Assembly: GCA_015232395.1 (NCBI GenBank)
Contig: JADFZT010000037.1
Location: 1 to 45,844 of the forward strand
Length of the DNA: 45,844 bases
DNA from: Magnetococcales bacterium
Lineage (GTDB): Bacteria > Pseudomonadota > Magnetococcia > Magnetococcales > JADFZT01
Direction: 5' to 3'
The position numbers were made by a program, and so were the translations under genes. The notes under the pieces are model-generated. The model saw nothing but the letters and a program-made list of their open reading frames with translations, had not been told where the DNA came from and made no database searches. Below, piece by piece: positions 23,910-37,974 of the stretch. Every line of letters begins with the position of its first letter. Position 1 is the stretch's first letter.

Positions 23910-25490
23910 ATGAAAACCATAGACACCAAGAGATTAAACTTTCGAAAAAACACTGGCATCCCCCTTGTTTTGGCCCTGGCTGCCACTCTTTCAGGCTGCG
24001 CAACAACCGCAGAACAGGCCGCTCTGGAGTCACAACTTCAAAATGAAATCGCCGTGTTAAAGCAAGAACAGGCGGCCCTGACAGCCAAAACCCAGGCTGC
24101 TGAAGAAGCTGAGCAGGCTGCCCTGGAGAGAACAGCTTTGGCCGATTCCAGAATAGCTCAACTCTCCGGAGTCGATCTGCTTCTTCCACCCAGTGCCAAG
24201 TCCGGAGAGTGTTATGCCCGGATCTGGGCGGAGCCGGTCTATAAGACCAAGGAGGTCGAGGTGTTGGTTCGAGAGGCTGGCGAAAAGGTTCACACCGTCC
24301 CGGCCGAGTATATCTGCTCCGATGAAACCGTCCTGGTGAAGGAAGCCTCCACCAAACTGGTCCCCGTGCCTGCGGTCTATGGTACGCATGAGGAGACCAT
24401 CATGACCCAGGAGGCTTCACAGCTCTGGAAAACGGGTCTGGATAAAAATGATCCTCCGGCAAACGTGGCACTACTGGCCGCCGCCAAGGATCACGGCATT
24501 GATCTGGATGCTGCCGTACCTGGCACCTGTTTCCACGAGCACTATCGTCCAGCCCAGTTCACGACCGAAAGCAAACAAGTGTTGAAGGCTGAAGCCAGTG
24601 AAAACGTGGATGTTTCCGCCGCCCAGTTTCGCATGGAGCAACAGACGGTTTTGGTCAAAGAGGCCTCCACCAAACTGATTGCTGTTCCTGCCGTCTATGA
24701 AACGATCGAAGAGTCTGTCCTGGATGTGCCCGCTCACACCATTTGGAAAAAGGGGACCGGCCCCATCCAGAAGATTGATGAAGCCACGGGCGAAATTATG
24801 TGTCTTGTCGATGTACCCGCCACCTACAAGACGATCACCAAACGCATCCTGAAATCTCCCGCCACTACAAAAACCGTGGAGATTCCTGCACAATACAAAA
24901 CCATCATGGTTTCCAGGCTGGCTGAGAGTGCCAAGGCGAGCCATACTGAAATTCCAGCCGAATACAATACAGTATCCATCACCAAAAAAGTTTCTGAGCA
25001 TAGCTTTGTCTGGCATGAAATTCATAACCGGGATGAGCCGAGAAAGACACGTACCGGCAACAAGATTTGCCTGACTGAAACCCCTGCCAAATATAAAACA
25101 GTCACTCGTCGTGTGGTCGAAATACCAGCTACTACCAAAGAGATCAACATTCCGGCCAAATACCAGACAGAAGAAGTATGCAAGCTCGTCACCCCGGCTT
25201 CTGAAACACGTACCGTCATTCCTGCAGAATACAAAACGGTGAGTTATCAGGAAATTGCCCAGGAAGGTCGCATGGAGTGGCGGCCCATTTTATGCGAGAC
25301 AAACACAACCCCCGACGTGATCCGTAAGTTGCAGACCAGTCTTCAGGAAAAAGGCTATTATGATGGCCCCATCGACGGCATCATCGGAGTGCTGACCATT
25401 CGGGGCTTGAACGGCTATCAACAGGCGAACAATCTACCCACCGATCGCTACCTCAACCTGGAAACCCTGAAAAATCTCGGTATTATTTGA
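23910..25490 (+). CDS. Repeat-rich lipoprotein with peptidoglycan-binding C terminus
   Basis: A 526-residue predicted outer-membrane lipoprotein. The signal peptide ends in the lipobox LSGC with the lipidated Cys30; Ala at +2 favours outer-membrane sorting. A short Ala/Glu/Gln coiled coil (about residues 31-88) resembles Lpp-type helices. Residues about 105-455 consist of degenerate repeats of a (V/I)PA-x-Y-x-T unit, at least nine copies, two of which carry an almost identical TVLVKEASTKL segment. The last 60 residues match a PG_binding_1 domain: VIRKLQTSLQEKGYYDGPID. It probably tethers the outer membrane to peptidoglycan. AGGAA precedes the ATG, and a terminator-like hairpin lies 45 bases after the stop, so it is probably monocistronic. 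The repeat array itself is not a family I can name. Confidence 0.75.
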   Translation: MKTIDTKRLNFRKNTGIPLVLALAATLSGCATTAEQAALESQLQNEIAVLKQEQAALTAKTQAAEEAEQAALERTALADSRIAQLSGVDLLLPPSAKSGECYARIWAEPVYKTKEVEVLVREAGEKVHTVPAEYICSDETVLVKEASTKLVPVPAVYGTHEETIMTQEASQLWKTGLDKNDPPANVALLAAAKDHGIDLDAAVPGTCFHEHYRPAQFTTESKQVLKAEASENVDVSAAQFRMEQQTVLVKEASTKLIAVPAVYETIEESVLDVPAHTIWKKGTGPIQKIDEATGEIMCLVDVPATYKTITKRILKSPATTKTVEIPAQYKTIMVSRLAESAKASHTEIPAEYNTVSITKKVSEHSFVWHEIHNRDEPRKTRTGNKICLTETPAKYKTVTRRVVEIPATTKEINIPAKYQTEEVCKLVTPASETRTVIPAEYKTVSYQEIAQEGRMEWRPILCETNTTPDVIRKLQTSLQEKGYYDGPIDGIIGVLTIRGLNGYQQANNLPTDRYLNLETLKNLGII

Positions 25491-27652: not shown

Positions 27653-27974
27653 GCTTTTTAGAGTCGAGTTTCGAGGTCCAACATCTCCCTTTTATGACGT
27701 CTGATGCAATTTTGAGGACTCTCCTGCTTGCATATTCCGTGCTCGTTGTTTTTATTTCTTTTTCACAAATACTCGTCTACCCTTCCAGAGGATGAAAAGT
27801 CACCTGTGCATGGCGAATTCCAACTCACGCCGTCGCAGGTAGCTGAAAAAGCCCCCGAAAGTTGGTCCATCTCACCTCCCCCAACTTCGTTCTCCGTCAT
27901 CGACATGACCTTGCAGGCAGATGTTTTTGGTGACGATGAGATTTACAAGGAGGACAACTGTTTTTGCTTGGAAA
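27653..27974. other. Intergenic region containing the left copy of a 47-bp repeat
   Basis: These 322 bases lie between the antiporter and the convergent Spo0M-like gene. No gene is supported. The left copy of the 47-bp direct repeat at 27811-27857 is the only notable element, and no clear terminator is seen for either flanking gene. Confidence 0.4.
27811..27857 (-). repeat. 47-bp direct repeat, left copy
   Basis: This 47-bp stretch matches 32780-32826 at 44 positions in the same orientation. Read on the minus strand it encodes FFSYLRRRELEFA, and two of the three differences between copies are silent in that frame. It may be the end of a decayed gene or a recombination site. The two copies bracket the four-gene TAXI/DUF2491/PspA/Spo0M cassette. 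Confidence 0.75.
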
Positions 27975-28937
27975 TCAACGATTCGCCACCCACATGGGGG
28001 TCCATCGGGAACAGGCGTCGTTGCCGATGGCAACCAGGCAGGCCTGCACCTGCCAGATGTGGCGTGCTGCCTCTCCTTGATAGCTGGGGTTGGCCCCTGG
28101 AGGCAGGGTCAGATCAATGGCCCATTCATGCTCGGAATGGGCCTGAAGTTGCAGGGAGCCATCCACTTCCAGCTCTTCAGCATGGGTATTGATGGTGACG
28201 GGCAGATCCTCTTGCTCAATGTAGACCTCCATCCCCTCCTCCACCAGGGTGGGCAGGTTGTCGACCACCACCTCCTCAACGCTGCGAATCTGCAGATAAA
28301 CCCGTTGGATTTCCAAATCCTGGGATCCCACAACAGCACGCACCCGGAGCTGGAAAGGTCCCTCCAGGTTGGGCTCTACCGCTTCCACCTCCAGATTGAC
28401 CCGGCCCCCGGAAACGGCATGGCCAGCACCATCGAACCCGGGCGAAGAGACCGCCTCACCCCCCTGGGCAATCTCCACCCCCACCCAGCCGGAATCCGGA
28501 TCGTTGCCCCTTACATCGAGACCGGCATAAAAAGACCAACCGTGCCGGAACAGCTCCCCGTCAAAAGTGGGTAGGGAACCGGCGGACAACTCCACGTCAA
28601 AGAGCCATTCGTTTTCGGAACCGGCCTCCAGGGTTCCGATGTCATCGATTTCATATTCCTGGCGGCCTGTTTCCTGGCTGCGATGGAGGTGGCGCTCCTC
28701 GACGCGGATGCCTTGCGAATCCTCTATGGCTGTCGGCACATCCGTAAGCTCAATCTCCTCCCGGCCCCGCACCTTGAGATAGACCCGGGCCACATTCAAA
28801 GCCGCCTCGCCGACATTGGCCTGCACACGTACTTGAAACGCCCCCGCCAGGGTGGGTTCCAAAACCTCCAGGGTGACGGTAGCCCCACCCCCCGTGACCA
28901 GATTTTTGATCGATTTCAGCTTGCCAAAAAAGCCCAT
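27975..28937 (-). CDS. Spo0M-like arrestin-fold protein with internal duplication
   Basis: A 320-residue cytoplasmic protein resembling the SpoOM family, which has an arrestin-like beta-sandwich fold. Two copies of a similar block are visible: GATVTLEVLEPTLAGAFQVR at about residue 18 and GRVNLEVEAVEPNLEGPFQL near residue 176. Each is followed by a strand of the VYLKVR/VYLQIR type. It begins MGFFGKLKSIKN, a small amphipathic helix that might touch membranes. The ribosome-binding site is AAGGGG. In Bacillus, Spo0M influences sporulation and division by an unclear mechanism. It is the last gene of the minus-strand cassette, 57 bases after the PspA-like gene. Arrestin-like proteins and PspA often occur together in envelope-stress clusters. 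Confidence 0.75.
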   Translation of the reverse strand: MGFFGKLKSIKNLVTGGGATVTLEVLEPTLAGAFQVRVQANVGEAALNVARVYLKVRGREEIELTDVPTAIEDSQGIRVEERHLHRSQETGRQEYEIDDIGTLEAGSENEWLFDVELSAGSLPTFDGELFRHGWSFYAGLDVRGNDPDSGWVGVEIAQGGEAVSSPGFDGAGHAVSGGRVNLEVEAVEPNLEGPFQLRVRAVVGSQDLEIQRVYLQIRSVEEVVVDNLPTLVEEGMEVYIEQEDLPVTINTHAEELEVDGSLQLQAHSEHEWAIDLTLPPGANPSYQGEAARHIWQVQACLVAIGNDACSRWTPMWVANR

Positions 28938-28994
28938 GCCCTGCCCCTTCTCAACAGCTCCTCAACAACGAAACCATTCTATTCCCTCTCCTCC

Positions 28995-29756
28995 TCAAAG
29001 TCCGGCGAAAGGATCGGAGATGTCCTGCTCCTTTTTGGCTTCCGCTCCCAGGATCTCCTGCAACAGATCCTCGTCGCCGCTCTTGCCCTTGGCAGCCATT
29101 TCGTCGGCGCTCATGGTGGCCATCGCCGCCTGGGTCTCAGCCTCTTCGGTGGCTTGGTTCATGGCGTCGAGAGCAATACCCATCTCATCGAAGCCGCCAG
29201 CGAGTCCTGCCAGCTCTTTTTGCTCCTGCTCCCGCATTTTGGCGGCTTCCTGGCGCATTTTGGCCGTTTCCATCCGGGTCCGGGCCTTGTCCAGCTGTTG
29301 TTGCATTGTTTCACGCCGAGCTTTGACCTGATCGTAAACTGACTGAATTTGATCCAGAATAGCCTTTTTCTCCCCATCCTCGCCCTTTTCCCGTTCCACT
29401 TCCGCCTGGGCGTTCTGCAACTGGGCGGCGAGCTTGCGGGCCTTGTCCATGATGCCCGCCCGTGCCGATTCATCCACCCCTTCCAGGCGCCCCTTGAGGA
29501 TGCGCAACGCCTGGCGGACTTGATCGGCCTTGCGCTCCCAGGCCTTGGTCTCTTCCACATCCTTGTCGTAAGCGCGCCGGGCCTTGACCAGTTTTTCCCG
29601 CAGGGTATTGAGCTTGTCATCCAACATCTGGATCTGGGCTTGGCTGACTGCTTCGGGATCAAGCCGGGCCAGGGTGGAGGTGACACTTTTCATGCCATCC
29701 TCCATTTTGACTTTGGCGGTTTTTCCAAACAGCTTGGCAAATCCTTTCCATCCCAT
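28995..29756 (-). CDS. PspA/IM30-family protein (YjfJ-like)
   Basis: A 253-residue, almost fully helical coiled-coil protein of the PspA/IM30 (ESCRT-III-like) family. Residues about 20-190 form long charged heptad helices with a conserved alpha-1 to alpha-4 pattern, for example LNTLREKLVKARRAYDKDVE. The N terminus MGWKGFAKLFGKTAK is amphipathic and basic, suited to membrane binding. The C terminus is Met/Ala/Glu-rich and ends DPFAGL. Members polymerise on damaged membranes. In E. coli, yjfJ (PspA-like) is adjacent to yjfK (DUF2491); here the DUF2491 gene is the upstream neighbour, which supports a YjfJ-type assignment rather than the classical pspABC system. The ribosome-binding site AGGAGA is strong. 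Confidence 0.85.
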   Translation of the reverse strand: MGWKGFAKLFGKTAKVKMEDGMKSVTSTLARLDPEAVSQAQIQMLDDKLNTLREKLVKARRAYDKDVEETKAWERKADQVRQALRILKGRLEGVDESARAGIMDKARKLAAQLQNAQAEVEREKGEDGEKKAILDQIQSVYDQVKARRETMQQQLDKARTRMETAKMRQEAAKMREQEQKELAGLAGGFDEMGIALDAMNQATEEAETQAAMATMSADEMAAKGKSGDEDLLQEILGAEAKKEQDISDPFAGL

Positions 29757-29842
29757 GATGCATCTCTCCTGACTCGAAAAGTAATACCGATGATAAAATG
29801 TCCCTGTCTCTCCAACTCCCGATGGGGAGAAGCAACACCCTA

Positions 29843-30538
29843 TCAGCCCCCTTTGAAGTAGGTCGGCTCCAGATCCAGGCCCATACTGATCTCCACCCAG
29901 GCCTCATCCGCAGTTTCCACCGCTGAAAGCAGGGCATATTCGACATTTCCCTCTCCTTCCAGTAACCGGGCATAGAGCATAGCTTGGTGTGATACAGCTG
30001 CCTCTGCCTCTACCTCTTCTGGGAAAAAATGCTGTTCCTCCATGGAAAGCGGGGCAACCTGTTCGTCCCCCCTACCCCACACGCGATTATAAAGGAAACT
30101 TCCCTTGACGCTCTTAAATTTCGAAAGACCGATGGAGCCATCCTCCTCCGACAACCAAAATTCCCACTCTTGTGCAGAGGAGGGATTGATTTCGTCGTGG
30201 GACTGGAAAAAACGGGTACCGCCATCAAACGGCTCACCGTTGGGAGCCACCGCCACCTCCAAAAAGCCCTTCCCCTGGTCCAGATAAAACCGGTAAAGCT
30301 GCACCCCTTCCAGATCAAAACGGCCCATCGCCGAGATAACCAGATCCTGGCCGGGCCACTGCAGCTGTCCCCCTTGGGATTCATGGAGAATGAATGGGGT
30401 CTCCTCCACGGTGATCGGCATCCCAGGGACAAGCCCGAAAGGTGGTTTTTCCTTGGGGCCATCCCCTCCCCCGAACAAACGTTTTTTCATGGAACCAGCT
30501 ACCGCCCTGGTCATCCCCATGGCCGCTCGTATCGACAT
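29843..30538 (-). CDS. DUF2491 protein (YjfK-like)
   Basis: A 231-residue soluble protein with a DUF2491 domain, the family of E. coli YjfK. The N terminus is basic (SMKKRLFGGGDGPKEKPPF). The body is predicted to be mostly beta, with the segments GQDLVISAMGRFDLEGVQLY and LYRFYLDQGKGFLEVAV. The C-terminal third is acidic and carries HFFPEEVEAEAAVSHQAML. No catalytic motif is evident, and the function of the family is unknown. The gene sits 86 bases before the PspA-like gene in the same order as yjfK and yjfJ should interact. The association of these two families across genomes is known; a direct link to membrane repair is inference. Confidence 0.82.
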   Translation of the reverse strand: MSIRAAMGMTRAVAGSMKKRLFGGGDGPKEKPPFGLVPGMPITVEETPFILHESQGGQLQWPGQDLVISAMGRFDLEGVQLYRFYLDQGKGFLEVAVAPNGEPFDGGTRFFQSHDEINPSSAQEWEFWLSEEDGSIGLSKFKSVKGSFLYNRVWGRGDEQVAPLSMEEQHFFPEEVEAEAAVSHQAMLYARLLEGEGNVEYALLSAVETADEAWVEISMGLDLEPTYFKGG

Positions 30539-30668
30539 GGCGCAATCCTTTCCTTATCCATATGGCAGGGGGCCAGAGAAAAAAATCCGCCAGCTCTTTC
30601 CTGTTATGACAGGGGCCCGGAAGGAGCCCCCCTTTCGACCCCCCTGCCGATGTGTCAAGGGGGTGGAT

Positions 30669-32621
30669 TCAATCCGCCAACCCCTGATAATCCCGCACTT
30701 CGGCGATGGCGTCGGTGACCGACTCCAGGAAGATATTTTCCGCCCAGGGGCCGTGGTTTTCAATCCATTGGGGCGAGAGGGCCAGCACGGTATCCACACA
30801 GAGGGTTTCCACCCCGGAGGTGAGATTGATCCACCCCTCCTGAAGCTCGCTGTATACCCCACCGGGAATTTCACAACTGCGATAGATGGGATTGCCCTCC
30901 CGGTCTTCTGCCTTGACCAGTTCATTGGAATGCACGGGGACCAGTTTCAGGCGGTTGCCGAACTTGTCGTTAATGGCACGCATCAGTTCCGAGTGAAGCC
31001 CCATGACCATGAAGGCGGCCTGATTGACATCCCCGGCCACCATGGCAGCAGATCCCAGATAGGAGCTGTGGCGGGTAGTGAGGGGGCTCAAATCCTGATC
31101 CCCGAACAGCCCGCCATTTTTGGAGCGTTGGGCCAGGTGGTTCCATGCCTCCGCAGAACCCGACCCTTCGGGACCCACATAGATTTTATGACGCTTCGGG
31201 TCCAGGTCGTCCAAGGCGTCGATGTCGCTCTTTTCGTGAACCAGCAGCCAAAAGGGCTCCTGATAGATGGACATCTGAAACGGTCCCAGAACGGGGTTTC
31301 CGCTTTGGCGCAGCCAGGCGTCCACCACATCGCTTTGCGCCAGCAGGGCATCAAAACGGCCCTCCTGGAAACCACGCAGGTTGTCCACGCTGCCAGCGGT
31401 ATGAGCGCACTCCACAGCCAGATCCATTGCCCGTTCCTTAAACCCGACCAATTCATCGTCGCCCAGGCAGAAGGCGGCATAGGCCCCACCGATGGCCCCT
31501 GTGCCAAAGGAGATGGGCGGAGCTGACAGCTCACCGGTCAACACCTCCTCCTGAAAAACCGCTTCCGGGGGAATTTCCGCCGTCTCAAGGGCTTGCTCCA
31601 ATGAAGGACGGGCGGTTCCCTGGTTTTGCAACCGACGGTTATCCCTTTCCAGCTGTTCAACACGTTGCAACAGCTCTGAATCCCCCCGCTCCATGGCTTC
31701 CCGTTTGGAGTCGGCCAAAAACAGGGAGATGGCGGGGCTTCCGGTCAGGGAATACCAGAGCATGGTGTCCCCCATCTCCTTGCCCATTCCCTGGGAGAGC
31801 AGCATGGTCATCAAAAAGCCGCTGTCGAACCCCCCATAATGGCGGTCACTGCCAAACATGTCCCAACTACGGTAACGGCTTGGAAAGGGATCATAACGGT
31901 TGTAGAAACGGCGGCGGCTGTCGCCGATGGAACGCCGGTCGAAGGTTCGATTTCGAGTCACGTTGCGATAGGTTTTGGAAGTACGGGATTCGGAAACCAG
32001 CTTGGAACGGGCGGCAATATGCTTGCTACGGCGTTTGCCCAGGGCCTTGGCCGATTGCTTGCGGGCCAATTTTCGATCCAGAGCGCTGATTTTGGGCTGG
32101 GATTTGAAGGTGACCTTTTGGGTTGCCTCCGATCCTGCACCTGTGGTCTTGCTCTGCCCGGGTTTTGTATACCTACCACTGGAGGTGGCTGTTTTTTCGG
32201 ATTTTGCATACCCGCTGCTGGTGGCTGCTGTCCCGGGTTTGGTATAGCCGTTACTGGATGCAGCTGTTTTCCCGGGTTTTGTATACCCGCTGCTGGTGCC
32301 TGCTGTTTTCCCGGGTTTTGCATACCCGCTGCTGGTGGCGTTCCGGGTTGATTTGGAATTGGAATAAATATTGGATTTTTTACTGGAGGCGCTCTTCTTG
32401 GACTGGCTCTTCCCGGATCGATAGCTGCTTTTCAGGGGGCTTGCTTTGGAACGACCCCAGGAAGCTTTTTTCTTGGAGCGGGAGGAAGAGCGGCTTTTTC
32501 CTTTGCTCTTGGCCAACGCTTTCTCAGTTTCCAAGACGGGCCATGGGTCCAGAGTGGGTGTGAAAGCGAAAACCACCAGCAGCGTGGTCACCATCAACAA
32601 CAACCGGTAGGGCTTAAACAT
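30669..32621 (-). CDS. TAXI-type solute-binding domain fused to a basic repeat tail
   Basis: A 650-residue exported protein. Residues 1-25 (PYRLLLMVTTLLVVFAF) form a signal peptide or anchor. Residues about 35-180 are Ser/Lys/Arg-rich, with five tandem units of about 13 residues such as SSGYTKPGKTA. A basic and then Tyr/Arg-rich linker leads to a short hydrophobic segment (GFLMTMLLSQGMGKEMGD) and a coiled coil. From about residue 365 comes a TAXI-family (TRAP-associated) binding domain: ISFGTGAIGGAYAAF, then DALLAQSDVVDAWL. TRAP membrane subunits are absent nearby, so uptake is doubtful; a sensory or wall-associated role is more likely. The ATG at 32621 is preferred over a TTG two codons earlier. 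It is the first gene of the cassette. Confidence 0.75.
   Translation of the reverse strand: MFKPYRLLLMVTTLLVVFAFTPTLDPWPVLETEKALAKSKGKSRSSSRSKKKASWGRSKASPLKSSYRSGKSQSKKSASSKKSNIYSNSKSTRNATSSGYAKPGKTAGTSSGYTKPGKTAASSNGYTKPGTAATSSGYAKSEKTATSSGRYTKPGQSKTTGAGSEATQKVTFKSQPKISALDRKLARKQSAKALGKRRSKHIAARSKLVSESRTSKTYRNVTRNRTFDRRSIGDSRRRFYNRYDPFPSRYRSWDMFGSDRHYGGFDSGFLMTMLLSQGMGKEMGDTMLWYSLTGSPAISLFLADSKREAMERGDSELLQRVEQLERDNRRLQNQGTARPSLEQALETAEIPPEAVFQEEVLTGELSAPPISFGTGAIGGAYAAFCLGDDELVGFKERAMDLAVECAHTAGSVDNLRGFQEGRFDALLAQSDVVDAWLRQSGNPVLGPFQMSIYQEPFWLLVHEKSDIDALDDLDPKRHKIYVGPEGSGSAEAWNHLAQRSKNGGLFGDQDLSPLTTRHSSYLGSAAMVAGDVNQAAFMVMGLHSELMRAINDKFGNRLKLVPVHSNELVKAEDREGNPIYRSCEIPGGVYSELQEGWINLTSGVETLCVDTVLALSPQWIENHGPWAENIFLESVTDAIAEVRDYQGLAD
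32160..32345 (-). repeat. Tandem repeat coding SSGY-KPGKTA units
   Basis: Five degenerate tandem units of about 36-42 bp lie in the N-terminal part of the TAXI-domain gene. They are recognisable as repeated CCCGGGTTTTG and ACCCGCTGCTGGTG blocks on the plus strand. Unit length is a multiple of three, so copy-number change would keep the frame. Confidence 0.75.
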
Positions 32622-33031
32622 CGGCAAGGGCTCCCGGGTGGAACGGGGATTTATTGGATTGGTTTTGTAAAAAAGGAGGCATAGTCACCACCCTCTGAGT
32701 TCTGTCTAATCATAGGCTCTGCAGCAAACTTTCAGGCCGGATAAGAGATCCCAATGATCTCGCCCGATTTACGTGTCCCTGGCGAATTCCAATTCACGCC
32801 GTCTCAGGTAGCTGAAAAAGACCCCGCAATACGTTTTCCAGGTGAAACCCTGGAGACCTGCTTGACCATGAAATGACCTGTTAAGGATCAGGGTATCCTT
32901 TAGCTGCACCACAGGAGCTGGCTATAAAATCGACACATAATCACCGTTTTTACTCGGAAATCATGGATTTGTCACCCATAGGTTGGCCGGTTTGTCATCG
33001 GCGATGAAAATCTCAGGTTTGGAATGAGAAT
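32622..33031. other. Intergenic region upstream of the TAXI gene
   Basis: About 410 bases separate the start of the TAXI-domain gene from the stop of the second hybrid kinase gene, both on the minus strand. No gene is supported. The region contains the right copy of the 47-bp direct repeat (32780-32826), and the promoter of the cassette should lie between that repeat and 32621. Confidence 0.4.
32780..32826 (-). repeat. 47-bp direct repeat, right copy
   Basis: Right-hand partner of the repeat at 27811-27857, 44 of 47 positions identical, same orientation, 4969 bp apart. On the minus strand this copy reads VFFSYLRRRELEFARDT and then a stop. Confidence 0.75.
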
Positions 33032-35092
33032 TCATAGCGTCTCTGACTCCTTCCCCATCTCTTCCGATGGACCGGTTGCCCTGGCAGGTGAACTACCCTG
33101 GTGAACGATCTGTACAATGGTCTCCAGCAACCGTTTCTTGCGGATCGGCTTGGTCAAGTGCAGGTCACAACCTGCCGCTTTGATCGACTCGGATTCCTCG
33201 TTCATGGCGTGAGCGGTCAGTGCAATGATGGGCGTGGGGTCGGCTCTGTTCTCCGACTCCCAAGTGCGAATTTGACGTGTGGCCTCGTAGCCGTCCATGA
33301 CCGGCATCTGGATGTCCATCAGTACTAGATTAAAGCTGCCGTTCTTGAACTTCTCCACGGCTTCAGCACCGTTCTCGGCAAGGGTCACTTGGTGTAGCGT
33401 GTTGCGAAGGTACGCTTCCACGACCATCTGATTTTCCGGGGAGTCCTCAACCAGCAGGATGTTCAAGCTATGGGGGGAGGCCCCAACCTTCTGAACCTCG
33501 GACAGCGCAACAGAGCCTGCCCCGCCATACTCTCCCTTTGGGGTGGCGTCAGCTTCGACCAGAGGCAATGGAACGATAACAGTGAAGGCACTTCCTTGAC
33601 CGACTTCACTTTCCAACTCAATGCGTCCGCCCATCAGATCCACAAGCCGCCGACAGATGGTCAGGCCGAGACCGGTTCCACCGTGCTTGCGTGTTGTGGT
33701 GGAGTCCGCTTGGGTAAAGGGGTGGAAAATTTCCTCCTGCTTCTCCTTGGGAATTCCAGGACCAGTATCTAAAATTTTAAACAATACGTGATCGTTGGTG
33801 CAGCCCTCCACCCGGAAGGTCACTTGACCAGCCTGGGTGAACTTGACGGCATTGCCAATAAGGTTCAGCAGCACTTGGCGCAACCGGGTCGGGTCACCCC
33901 GTACCCACTGTGAAACGCCTTCATCCATTTCATGTTTGAGCTTGATACCTTTGTCCAAAGCAGAAAAAGCAAAAAGCTCCATGGTCTCATCAACCAATTG
34001 ACGTAAGTCGAAAACCGTTTCCTCCAGAGTCAACTGATCCGCCTCAATCTTGGACAGGTCGAGAATATCGTTGATGAGAATCAGCAGGGACTTCCCGGAA
34101 TAGTTAAGGGTCTTGACGAACCATGCCTGCGTATCTGTGAGCTTGGTATCCACCAGGAGTTCACCCATACCCAGGATAGAATTGAGAGGGGTGCGGATTT
34201 CGTGGGACATGGTGGCCAGAAAGGCACTCTTGGCCCGGTTGGCCGCCTCTGCTTGTTCCCTGGCTACCTGCAACGCCGTTTCCGTTTTCACCCGTTGGCT
34301 GATGTTGCGGACAAAGGCGAAGACGTAATCCTCACCCTGGTAGGTCACGAAATTGGCTTGGATCTCAACTGGAAAAACGTGCCCTGTTTTGGTCTGGTGA
34401 CTGGACTCAAATACCAAACTGTGCTGTTCACTCAGCGTCTTCCAGATTTCCGGCCAACGTTCGGCCGGATAATTGGGATCTATATCGAACACCCCGAGAC
34501 CCAACAGGGAATCTCGCGAATATTCCAATGTTCGGCATGCTGCCTCGTTCACGTCGCGAAAACGGCCATCGAAGTCAATCAGGAAACCGGCGTCTCCCAT
34601 CTTTTCGACAATGAACCGGGTCAACCGCAGGTGTCCCTCGGTTTCCTTGCGCCGGACGATTTCCTGTCGCAGCTCCTCATTGGCTTGCCGGGTCTTTTGG
34701 TGGGCGGCATAGAGGTCAAGAAAGAGCCAGACCTTGGAGAGCAGGATCGTGTTGTCAATCGGTTTTTCGATGTAGTCGATGGCCCCGGACTCATAGCCCT
34801 TGCGCCGATGAAAATCATCCTGGTAGGCGGCGGTGATAAAGATGATTGGGACGCCCTTGGTCTTGTCCACGCCTTGGGCCATCCTGGCGACTTCGTAGCC
34901 GTCCATGCCCGGCATGTCCACGTCCAAAAGCATCAAAGCCAGTTCGTGCTCGACCATGAGACCCAAAGCTTCATCGCCCGAGGGCGCTTCCAGGATCTCC
35001 GCATCCACTTGCGCCAAAAGGGTCCGCAATGCCTTGAGGTTGGCCGGTTTGTCGTCAACGATGAGGATCTTCGGTTGGAGGGGTTGGTTCAT
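33032..35092 (-). CDS. Hybrid histidine kinase (REC-PAS-HisKA-HATPase-REC)
   Basis: A 686-residue cytoplasmic hybrid kinase with receivers at both ends. The N-terminal receiver shows ILIVDDKPANL and phosphoacceptor Asp in LLDVDMPGMDGY. A PAS domain (about residues 155-275) contains GRFRDVNEAACRTLEYSRDS. HisKA has His297 in FLATMSHEIRTPLNSILGMG. HATPase_c has DPTRLRQVLLNLIGNAVKFT, DTGPGIPKEK and GTGLGLTICRRL. The C-terminal receiver has LLVEDSPENQ and LMDIQMPVMDGY. The ATG at 35092 overlaps the stop of the preceding kinase in an ATGA, so the two are translationally coupled; the longer upstream frame lies inside that gene. With an N-terminal receiver, it could take phosphate from the transmembrane kinase and relay it on. 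Confidence 0.92.
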   Translation of the reverse strand: MNQPLQPKILIVDDKPANLKALRTLLAQVDAEILEAPSGDEALGLMVEHELALMLLDVDMPGMDGYEVARMAQGVDKTKGVPIIFITAAYQDDFHRRKGYESGAIDYIEKPIDNTILLSKVWLFLDLYAAHQKTRQANEELRQEIVRRKETEGHLRLTRFIVEKMGDAGFLIDFDGRFRDVNEAACRTLEYSRDSLLGLGVFDIDPNYPAERWPEIWKTLSEQHSLVFESSHQTKTGHVFPVEIQANFVTYQGEDYVFAFVRNISQRVKTETALQVAREQAEAANRAKSAFLATMSHEIRTPLNSILGMGELLVDTKLTDTQAWFVKTLNYSGKSLLILINDILDLSKIEADQLTLEETVFDLRQLVDETMELFAFSALDKGIKLKHEMDEGVSQWVRGDPTRLRQVLLNLIGNAVKFTQAGQVTFRVEGCTNDHVLFKILDTGPGIPKEKQEEIFHPFTQADSTTTRKHGGTGLGLTICRRLVDLMGGRIELESEVGQGSAFTVIVPLPLVEADATPKGEYGGAGSVALSEVQKVGASPHSLNILLVEDSPENQMVVEAYLRNTLHQVTLAENGAEAVEKFKNGSFNLVLMDIQMPVMDGYEATRQIRTWESENRADPTPIIALTAHAMNEESESIKAAGCDLHLTKPIRKKRLLETIVQIVHQGSSPARATGPSEEMGKESETL

Positions 35093-37974
35093 GGCATTTC
35101 CGACTCCTTCCCCCTGTTTTCCGATGGACCGGTTGCCCTGGTGGGTGAAGCCTTGAGCCACTGACGCATCTTCTCCAACAGGCTTTCAAGCTCTACCGGC
35201 TTGCTCAGGTAATCGTCGGCTCCGGCCTCAAGACATTTCTTGCGATCTTCCGGCATGGTCTTGGCGGTCAAGGCGATGATCGGCAAATGTCGCATGTCGT
35301 CCCGATTTCTGATTTCCCGGATGGCCTCCAAGCCGTCCATGTTGGGCATCATAATGTCCATGAGTACGATACTGACCTCGCGTTCTTTTTCCAATTCGGC
35401 CAGTGCTTTCACGCCATCCCGCGCCATCAACACGCGGTTTACCTTTTTCTGTAATGCTTGGGCTAGAGAGAAGGTGTTGCGCATGTCGTCATCCACGATC
35501 AGAACAGTGATCGGCGGCTCCCCAAGTTGGAATTCCCGCAGCCGTTCCTCCTCGCCAGTTGAGTCGCCATTGGACAGGGTGCGAACTTTTGGCAGGATGG
35601 TATCATCCCCGTTTTTGATCGGATAGGGAACGATCGGAATCTTGGGGTTGCCGAGCCAATCCGCCAGGGTCAACAACAGTTTTTCCGCATCCACGGGCTT
35701 GGCCAGATAGTCACTGGCTCCCGCCTCCAGACACTGCTCCCGATCTCCCGGCATGGCTTTGGCCGTGAGCGCCACGACCGGCAGTTTACTGAAACGGGTT
35801 TGTTCCCTGATCGCCTGCATCGCTTCGTAACCGTTCATCTCCGGCATCATGATATCCATCAGAACCAAATCAATGTCGGGATGTTCATTCATTACATCCA
35901 GGGCTTGCCGCCCGTTGTGCGCGGTGAGTACCTGACCGACTCGACCTTCGAGAGCCTGTTTCAAGGCAAAGACGTTGCGCCGGTCGTCGTCCACCACCAG
36001 AATGGTCCGGGTAAAATCGCGGAATGCGATGGCTTTTCGAGCATCTTCCTCTCTGTCTTGACCGGGTTTGCCACCCACCTTCGCCGCCCGTTCCACCCTA
36101 TCCAGAGCCGATGGAAAGTGCAGCGGGAGGTAAAGGGTGAACGAGGAACCGTGGTCTTCCTCGCTTTCCACCTTGATCTCGCCACCGATCAGTTCCGTAA
36201 ATTTGCGAGAGATCGAAAGTCCCAGGCCCGTGCCGCCGAACTTGCGACTGGTGGAGCCATCGGCTTGTCGGAAAGCCTCAAAAATCTGTTCTCGCTTGTC
36301 CTGGGGAATGCCGATACCGGTGTCGGACACGGTTACGCCCACGCAGTTGGCGGCCGTCAGATCCGGGCTCATAAAGACCAGCCCGCGCCGAGGCTGCTCT
36401 ACTCGAACAGTGACGCTGCCTTCGGCAGTGAATTTGAGGGCGTTGGAAAGGAAATTACGGACGATCTGTTCGACCTTGCTCCAGTCGCTTTCCAAGGCAG
36501 ACGGGACGCCATCTCCAATGTTTGCCTCGAAGAGCAAGCCTTTTTTTTCAGCTACCGGACGGAACATGCGTTCGATAGAACTGATGAAGTCGGCAAAGCT
36601 CTTCTCCTCCACGTACAGATCCATACGACCCGCTTCCACCTTGGAGAGGTCAAGGATGTCGTTGATGAGGCGCAGAAGATCGCTGCCACTTTCATGAATG
36701 ACGGTGGCGGAATCAACCTGGGAATGGCTCAGATTGCCATGCTCGTTGTTGGACAACACTTTGGAAAGGATGAGGAGGCTGTTCAGGGGCGTCCGCAATT
36801 CATGGGACATGTTGGCCAGAAATTCCGATTTGTAGCGGCTGGCGTTCTCCAATTCGTGAGCCTTTTCCTTGAACACGTCCGCCGCCATGGCCATGGCCCC
36901 GATTTCGTCGCGCCGACCTTTTCCAGGAATCTCTGCGTTCATTTGACCACGAGCCAAACTGGTCAAGGTTCGGGTCATGATCCGAACAGGACCGGCGATG
37001 TTGCGGCTGATCCACCACGCCAGGAACAGACCAAGAGTAATGGCCAGCAAGGACGCATACTCGGTGGTCCGCTGAGTCTGGTCCACCGAACTGGTCATAA
37101 CCGTTTCCACCTGCTCCTGTTCCCGCAGGGTCAGTTCCTTGAGTTCTCTGGCCAAAAAGGCGATCTCAGCGGCCTCGCCCCCCATCACCACGTAGACGAG
37201 GTGCATGTAGGCGCGGGTGGCTTGCACCATGCCAAAAAATGCTTTCTCGAATTGGGGAGCCAATGCCTTGGCCCTAAGGGCGCTGTCCATTTCCGCGCCA
37301 GCATCCAAGTGGTCGATCAGACGCTCCAACGACCCGGACAGCAAGGCCAGTCTCCGCTTGGTTTCCCCAACCAGATTTGATTTCGGCTTGATGAGAAACT
37401 GCAAGGCATCCCGTTGAGCCAACAGCAGCTTTCCCTGGGCAGCTCCAGCCATCTCAGCCCCCTGGATATCTCCCCGTTCCAGAGCGGAGTCGTGGATGAC
37501 TTCCAACAGAGTCACGATCTCATCACCTAAAACCATCATCCGCTCAAAAACCAGTCGGTCGCGAAGGGTGCGTTCCTCTATGGCGGCATCGAAATTACCT
37601 GCATAGAGTCGGAAGTTGTCACCCATCCGACGAAGGACATCTGTCCTCTGCGCGTCGCCAACCTTGCCTCGAACCGTTTCAATCTGGTTGGTCAACACTG
37701 CTTGAAGCTCCTTCACCCTCTGGGCGACCCCTGCATAGCCAGAGTAGGTGAATGCCAATACCCCGCGTTGCAGGTCCAGGACGTTGCGTTCGATTTCCAG
37801 GATGGTGCGCACCTCCCGGTTGGTCTCGCCATAGCGGGTAAAGTGGGTGACGGCGTTGTCGAAGCCCAGGTTGCCGATCACTGCCTGACCGGCGAACACG
37901 ACCATGACCAGACCGAACCCCAGGAAGATCTGTTTACCGATAGTGAAGCGAAAGAGGCTAAAAAAATCGAACAT
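35089..37974 (-). CDS. Transmembrane hybrid histidine kinase (sensor-HAMP-HisKA-HATPase-REC-REC)
   Basis: A 961-residue inner-membrane kinase. Two membrane segments (about residues 12-34 and 309-326) enclose a helical periplasmic sensor of about 275 residues. HAMP follows (ISRNIAGPVRIMTRTLTSLARG). HisKA carries His391 in FLANMSHELRTPLNSLLILS. HATPase_c shows NFLSNALKFT, DTGIGIPQDK and GTGLGLSISRKF. Two receivers follow: ILVVDDDRRNVFALKQALEG with LMDIMMPEMNGY, and VLIVDDDMRNTFSLAQALQK with LMDIMMPNMDG. Their likeness suggests an internal duplication. It starts 15 bases after the Tat-exported binding protein, which is therefore its likely periplasmic ligand-sensing partner, and is coupled by ATGA to the second kinase. 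Confidence 0.93.
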   Translation of the reverse strand: MFDFFSLFRFTIGKQIFLGFGLVMVVFAGQAVIGNLGFDNAVTHFTRYGETNREVRTILEIERNVLDLQRGVLAFTYSGYAGVAQRVKELQAVLTNQIETVRGKVGDAQRTDVLRRMGDNFRLYAGNFDAAIEERTLRDRLVFERMMVLGDEIVTLLEVIHDSALERGDIQGAEMAGAAQGKLLLAQRDALQFLIKPKSNLVGETKRRLALLSGSLERLIDHLDAGAEMDSALRAKALAPQFEKAFFGMVQATRAYMHLVYVVMGGEAAEIAFLARELKELTLREQEQVETVMTSSVDQTQRTTEYASLLAITLGLFLAWWISRNIAGPVRIMTRTLTSLARGQMNAEIPGKGRRDEIGAMAMAADVFKEKAHELENASRYKSEFLANMSHELRTPLNSLLILSKVLSNNEHGNLSHSQVDSATVIHESGSDLLRLINDILDLSKVEAGRMDLYVEEKSFADFISSIERMFRPVAEKKGLLFEANIGDGVPSALESDWSKVEQIVRNFLSNALKFTAEGSVTVRVEQPRRGLVFMSPDLTAANCVGVTVSDTGIGIPQDKREQIFEAFRQADGSTSRKFGGTGLGLSISRKFTELIGGEIKVESEEDHGSSFTLYLPLHFPSALDRVERAAKVGGKPGQDREEDARKAIAFRDFTRTILVVDDDRRNVFALKQALEGRVGQVLTAHNGRQALDVMNEHPDIDLVLMDIMMPEMNGYEAMQAIREQTRFSKLPVVALTAKAMPGDREQCLEAGASDYLAKPVDAEKLLLTLADWLGNPKIPIVPYPIKNGDDTILPKVRTLSNGDSTGEEERLREFQLGEPPITVLIVDDDMRNTFSLAQALQKKVNRVLMARDGVKALAELEKEREVSIVLMDIMMPNMDGLEAIREIRNRDDMRHLPIIALTAKTMPEDRKKCLEAGADDYLSKPVELESLLEKMRQWLKASPTRATGPSENRGKESEMP

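Follow-up and report, generated by a model that had tools for sequence, protein, structure and literature searches.

A TAXI receptor fusion encoded in line with DUF2491 and PspA-like proteins in Magnetococcales: a possible envelope-maintenance module

The window described here is the whole 45,844-nucleotide stretch that was analysed, contig C37 of a Magnetococcales genome of 4.94 Mb that is about 99% complete. In its list of open reading frames, four genes follow one another on the minus strand in the order TAXI fusion, DUF2491, PspA-like and arrestin-like, with intergenic gaps of 130, 86 and 57 nt, so that the four are indeed encoded together, as a sequence-only reading of this DNA had proposed. 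The features are as follows.

30669..32621, minus strand: TAXI-fusion protein, predicted to be exported, 650 aa, ATG at 32621 (PF16868, TIGR02122, TAXI structures, orthologues)
32511..32621, minus strand: predicted Sec signal peptide with a possible AxA cleavage site (EKALA/KSKGK, cut at the slash), from a Kyte-Doolittle hydrophobic stretch
31863..32510, minus strand: cationic low-complexity stem with GYxKP repeats, from composition and repeat counts
30672..31520, minus strand: TAXI Venus-flytrap domain, with contact residues Y383, S413, Q431 and E457 and invariant C387, C407, C585 and C610
29843..30538, minus strand: DUF2491 (YjfK-type) protein, 231 aa (PF10679)
28995..29756, minus strand: PspA/Vipp1-like (ESCRT-III-like) coiled-coil protein, 253 aa, from predicted fold and a profile match to YjfJ
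27975..28937, minus strand: arrestin/Spo0M-like protein with an internal duplication, 320 aa, from the likeness of its halves and a homologue that passes PF07070
28470..28937, minus strand: N-terminal arrestin-like repeat, related to single-domain proteins in genomes G002, G005 and G007
27975..28418, minus strand: C-terminal arrestin-like repeat

A consensus scan, which performs at chance level, found no minus-strand terminators in the gaps between the four genes. The cluster is flanked on both sides by a 59-nt direct repeat (88%; 27802-27860 and 32771-32829), both copies of which encode G[GV]FFSYLRRRELEFA on the minus strand. These repeats were considered as the boundary of a cassette, an idea weakened by a third, partial copy (45 nt, 87%) at G000:C13:52263-52307. 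Elsewhere in the window, a 62-nt repeat (85%) occupies the 3' ends of two adjacent hybrid histidine kinase genes (33031-33092 and 35088-35149), and 23910-25490 encodes a putative exported protein whose C-terminal domain is of the peptidoglycan-binding type and in which 'PA.YKT' segments recur.

The largest of the four proteins is assigned to the TAXI family by PF16868 (TAXI/NMT1_3; 8e-11, 42.5 bits, above the Pfam cut-off of 27) and by a profile comparison with the solved TAXI receptors 1us4 and 8u79 (E 2e-8), while TIGR02122 gives 5e-12, yet at 45 bits lies under its cut-off of 84. Its reading frame opens at a TTG at 32627, and the residue numbering used here follows the resulting 652-aa frame. 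Orthologues of the fusion are found at L005, L006, L007 and L008, and the AxA motif followed by basic residues was also read in L005, L006, L074 and L081. Amphipathic N-terminal helices were considered as common membrane anchors and set aside, their moments being too weak (mostly in the 64th to 100th percentile of other reading frames). The stem is strongly basic, with 30 K+R against 4 D+E in residues 31-170, and the three orthologues have 4, 7 and 8 copies of a [GRS]Yx[KR]P repeat, counts reached by none of 2000 shuffles; a tandem DNA repeat (D1, 32157-32345) lies within the stem-coding region. The TAXI domain with basic repeats predicted by the sequence-only reading is therefore present, but the repeats form an N-terminal stem between signal peptide and TAXI domain rather than a tail. 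The TAXI proteins contain exactly four cysteines, all within the TAXI domain and invariant across the three orthologues, which would fit disulfides in the periplasm.

The ligand pocket of the TAXI domain can be compared with that of the glutamate receptor VcGluP through an alignment that runs via the Thermus thermophilus receptor 1us4. Y383, S413, Q431 and E457 are the equivalents of the VcGluP glutamate contacts Y45, S75, Q93 and E125, so all four contact side chains tested are kept, and they are invariant in the three orthologues. Equivalents of Y45 and Q93 are present in 78% and 54% of TAXI sequences, respectively (PMC11574862), and because both are kept here the alignment suggests a functional pocket, with an amino acid as perhaps its ligand. 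A TAXI-type fused QM TRAP permease was not found in the genome, as its single DctM permease is unfused (DctQM type) and lies beside a separate DctQ-like gene. There is precedent for TAXI receptors outside TRAP transporters in TAXI-GltS (PMC12344293). Among the better matches to the TAXI domain (E 3e-9) is a gene on a Methylobacterium indicum plasmid (L102:3306-4289) with no annotated permease nearby.

The second gene encodes the YjfK-type DUF2491 protein that had been expected, at 83.1 bits against a PF10679 cut-off of 25. Its predicted fold was also considered as a clue to function and discarded, the model being of low confidence (pLDDT 61) and giving no informative match. ESCRT-III has bacterial relatives in the PspA-type proteins, and the product of the third gene had been read as one of them. 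It is not a canonical PspA by Pfam, as PF04012 (PspA/IM30) scores 13.7 bits against a cut-off of 33.9, and the label survives at the level of a remote relationship. An AlphaFold model made with three sequences shows a long helical hairpin (helices 15-32, 34-91 and 96-217), for which the best five Foldseek matches are all Vipp1 or PspA, with a best E of 0.007 and low TM-scores to which unrelated coiled coils come close. A profile built from the first three sequences gave a non-significant match to YjfJ proteins (E 0.05), and significance was reached with ten (E 1.9e-6, probability 90%). By profile and predicted fold the protein thus appears to be a remote PspA relative, although this is not proven.

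The order and direction of the first three genes are repeated in G002:C88 and G005:C111 (MAG records JADGBX010000017 and JADFWT010000001), which belong to two other Magnetococcales families, so that the locus is known from three families including that of the window. Identity to the window proteins is approximately 35% for the TAXI fusion, 35-38% for DUF2491 and 54-56% for the PspA-like protein. Among 398 sampled Pseudomonadota genomes the TAXI fusion is found at E <= 1e-30 at these three loci only, and the set is absent from many Magnetococcales. Of 61 relatives, four (G000, G002, G005 and G007) have the PspA-like protein, the gene in G007 sitting at a contig end with its upstream side cut off. 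The conserved unit is therefore made up of three genes, with the arrestin-like fourth co-occurring by genome; of the gene order proposed earlier, the first three positions recur in three families, while adjacency of the arrestin-like gene is confined to the window locus.

The arrestin-like protein is duplicated as described, its halves being 39% identical (E 1e-34), and its attribution to the Spo0M family runs through an ortholog alone: the window protein itself gives no match to PF07070 (Spo0M), while the orthologous single-domain protein L051 exceeds the cut-off of 23 with 26.8 bits. The best solved-structure match of the arrestin-like profile is Spo0M, at a non-significant E of 0.45, and Spo0M identity by direct profile comparison with one Spo0M-family protein was rejected as not significant. 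Close homologues of the N-terminal repeat are limited to G000, G002, G005 and G007, exactly the carriers of the PspA-like protein, an overlap of two 4-in-61 sets with a probability of 1 in 521,855 if they were independent, a figure that shared ancestry makes too optimistic. In G002, G005 and G007, however, these genes lie away from the PspA-like cluster, four families being involved in all. Membership of the arrestin-like gene in the unit is consequently dropped, as it stands outside the conserved order and elsewhere in other genomes, though its presence tracks that of the PspA-like gene; its product is probably an accessory cytoplasmic scaffold, with a gene linked at the window locus only. 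Weak homologues of the C-terminal repeat in G011 and G023 lie beside genes identified by eye as hemerythrin-like, and single-domain arrestin-like genes (L054:5717-6841, L055:5600-6615 and L049:6195-9397) lie beside a hemerythrin-like or a beta-lactamase-fold/cNMP/hemerythrin gene.

The partnership of DUF2491 with this coiled-coil family extends well beyond the three loci, as both are encoded together in G071 and its order, in G293 (L075), in Azospirillum and in Bosea. The window PspA-like family matches a profile of the members from the G071 order and G293 with E 1.4e-15, while the relatives in Azospirillum and Bosea were found by tblastn. The Azospirillum and Bosea clusters contain DUF2491, DUF350 and coiled-coil genes, with the DUF350 gene placed between the other two in Azospirillum and in the relatives of G071. 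In these last two groups a signal-like segment opens the DUF2491 protein, followed by a stem that carries GYxRP motifs and then by a membrane helix; the G/S-rich, signal-bearing stem of Azospirillum type is joined through this helix to DUF2491, a predicted architecture that would be a direct physical route from the envelope to DUF2491. Homology of a helical module of the window stem with the Azospirillum-type proteins was not retained, since shuffle tests gave a mixed outcome: one sequence was significant (score 54 against 28+-5), and for a second the score was reached by 98 of 1000 shuffles, which is not significant. In G290:C160 (L098), neighbours examined by eye show a divergent coiled-coil gene with DUF350 on one side and a YjfC-like gene on the other, a YjfM-like gene coming next. 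These surroundings match yjfJ-type operons (PMC11237479), and the coiled-coil gene takes the place where YjfJ/PspA might be expected. A second PspA-like gene in G005:C353 (L053:7173-10377) comes after a gene for an MscS mechanosensitive channel, both on one strand. The yjf-type, DUF350 and MscS contexts support an inner-membrane role for the coiled-coil family.

We tentatively favour, with somewhat less than even confidence, the interpretation that the locus is a divergent envelope-maintenance module of the Yjf/Psp type, in which a TAXI Venus-flytrap receptor was added to the exported partner. This draws on computed gene content, conserved order, family relationships, conserved binding residues and the absence of a TAXI-type permease. 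In the cytoplasm, the ESCRT-III-like coiled-coil protein would work on the inner membrane, its conserved partner being DUF2491, while the envelope side would be served by an exported protein with a cationic stem, to which the TAXI domain is attached in Magnetococcales. The stem may keep the receptor bound to anionic polymers of the wall or membrane, the TAXI domain could bind a small acidic or amino-acid ligand, and its bound or free state might pass by a putative membrane contact to DUF2491 and so to recruitment of the PspA-like protein. The route of such a signal is missing at the window locus, because the TAXI protein and DUF2491 are not connected there by a membrane helix. The idea of an envelope-sensing and repair unit thus fits the three-family order, the yjf-type partners, the kept contacts and the lack of a TAXI-type permease, and it is the export and retention of the stem-TAXI protein, its ligand, signal transfer and membrane repair that we infer. 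A more specific version, in which ESCRT-III-like repair is gated by a soluble Venus-flytrap, with the TAXI domain detecting glutamate or a similar compound leaking into the periplasm on inner-membrane damage and the PspA-like protein being recruited in response, is distinctly improbable.

The kept TAXI binding residues would also suit an uptake receptor whose secondary transporter is unlinked or unrecognised, comparable to TAXI-GltS of Bordetella pertussis, with the neighbours providing envelope housekeeping; BP0403 of that species is a documented TAXI protein that has additional N-terminal domains but lacks a TRAP partner (PMC12344293). Over the stretches read, nothing in line with the three loci was recognised as a transporter gene, and the antiporter gene that adjoins the cluster in the window lies on the other strand. 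The linkage that recurs in three families is to DUF2491 and the PspA-like gene, and we regard this explanation as unlikely. The same invariant contact side chains bear on a further alternative, that the exported protein is a structural binder of wall or polyanions in which the cationic stem does the work and the TAXI domain is an ungated scaffold. The long basic stem with its GYxKP repeats would suit such a role, as would the exported G/S/R/W-rich proteins without TAXI in other DUF2491 systems (YjfM-type proteins, Azospirillum stems), but a mere scaffold would not need these side chains, and their invariance makes the proposal rather improbable.

That the genes are neighbours without common function is very unlikely. 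The restriction of the TAXI fusion to three loci, the unlinked arrestin-like gene elsewhere and the many Magnetococcales without the set count in favour of this reading, against which stand an order and direction shared by three families with proteins 34-56% identical, and the joint travel of DUF2491 and the PspA-like family in distant classes. If the envelope-maintenance reading is correct, it matters since how PspA-type proteins learn of damage is understood only in part, and a testable input signal would follow from their conserved link with a periplasmic ligand receptor that has no TAXI-type permease. The Azospirillum-type fusion of stem, membrane helix and DUF2491 offers a culturable model for a protein family of obscure role.

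Several known systems share parts of this design. The yjfIJKLMC operon of E. coli and relatives encodes YjfJ (PspA family), YjfK (DUF2491), YjfL (DUF350), YjfM (DUF1190) and YjfC, in line with the proximity of yjfK and yjfJ pointed out in the sequence-only reading, and like the window it places DUF2491 next to a PspA-type protein together with an exported protein of low complexity. In contrast to that operon, the PspA-like protein of the window is very divergent and the exported partner is a TAXI fusion; YjfI (DUF2170), DUF350, DUF1190 (YjfM) and YjfC were not recognised by eye among the neighbouring reading frames of the three TAXI loci. The bac cluster of Pseudomonas aeruginosa (PA3732-PA3729) similarly has a PspA homologue in a non-classical operon and differs in its DUF2170 chaperone-like BacA, with no TAXI protein described in the available part of that report (PMC10948618). 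The Azospirillum and Bosea clusters share the related PspA-like family and DUF2491, and in Azospirillum also a signal-bearing GYxRP stem, which there is fused through a membrane helix to DUF2491; unlike the window, they have DUF350 and lack a TAXI domain. Bacillus subtilis Spo0M, for which association with FtsZ and an effect on membrane morphology are reported (PMC5325327), is related to the arrestin-like protein remotely, through L051, whereas the window protein consists of tandem N-domain-like repeats. VcGluP (PMC11574862) shares the four contact positions, while the window receptor differs in having no cognate fused permease, four invariant cysteines and a proline at the D157 equivalent. 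BP0403 (PMC12344293) is likewise a longer envelope protein with its TAXI domain at the C-terminus and no TRAP permease, but it is a lipoprotein whose other parts are an alpha/beta domain and a helical domain that dimerises, and its gene is linked to gltS, whereas the window protein has a basic stem and is linked to PspA-like and DUF2491 genes. DUF2491/PspA-type envelope modules being already known, the TAXI receptor on the exported partner is best seen as the new part.
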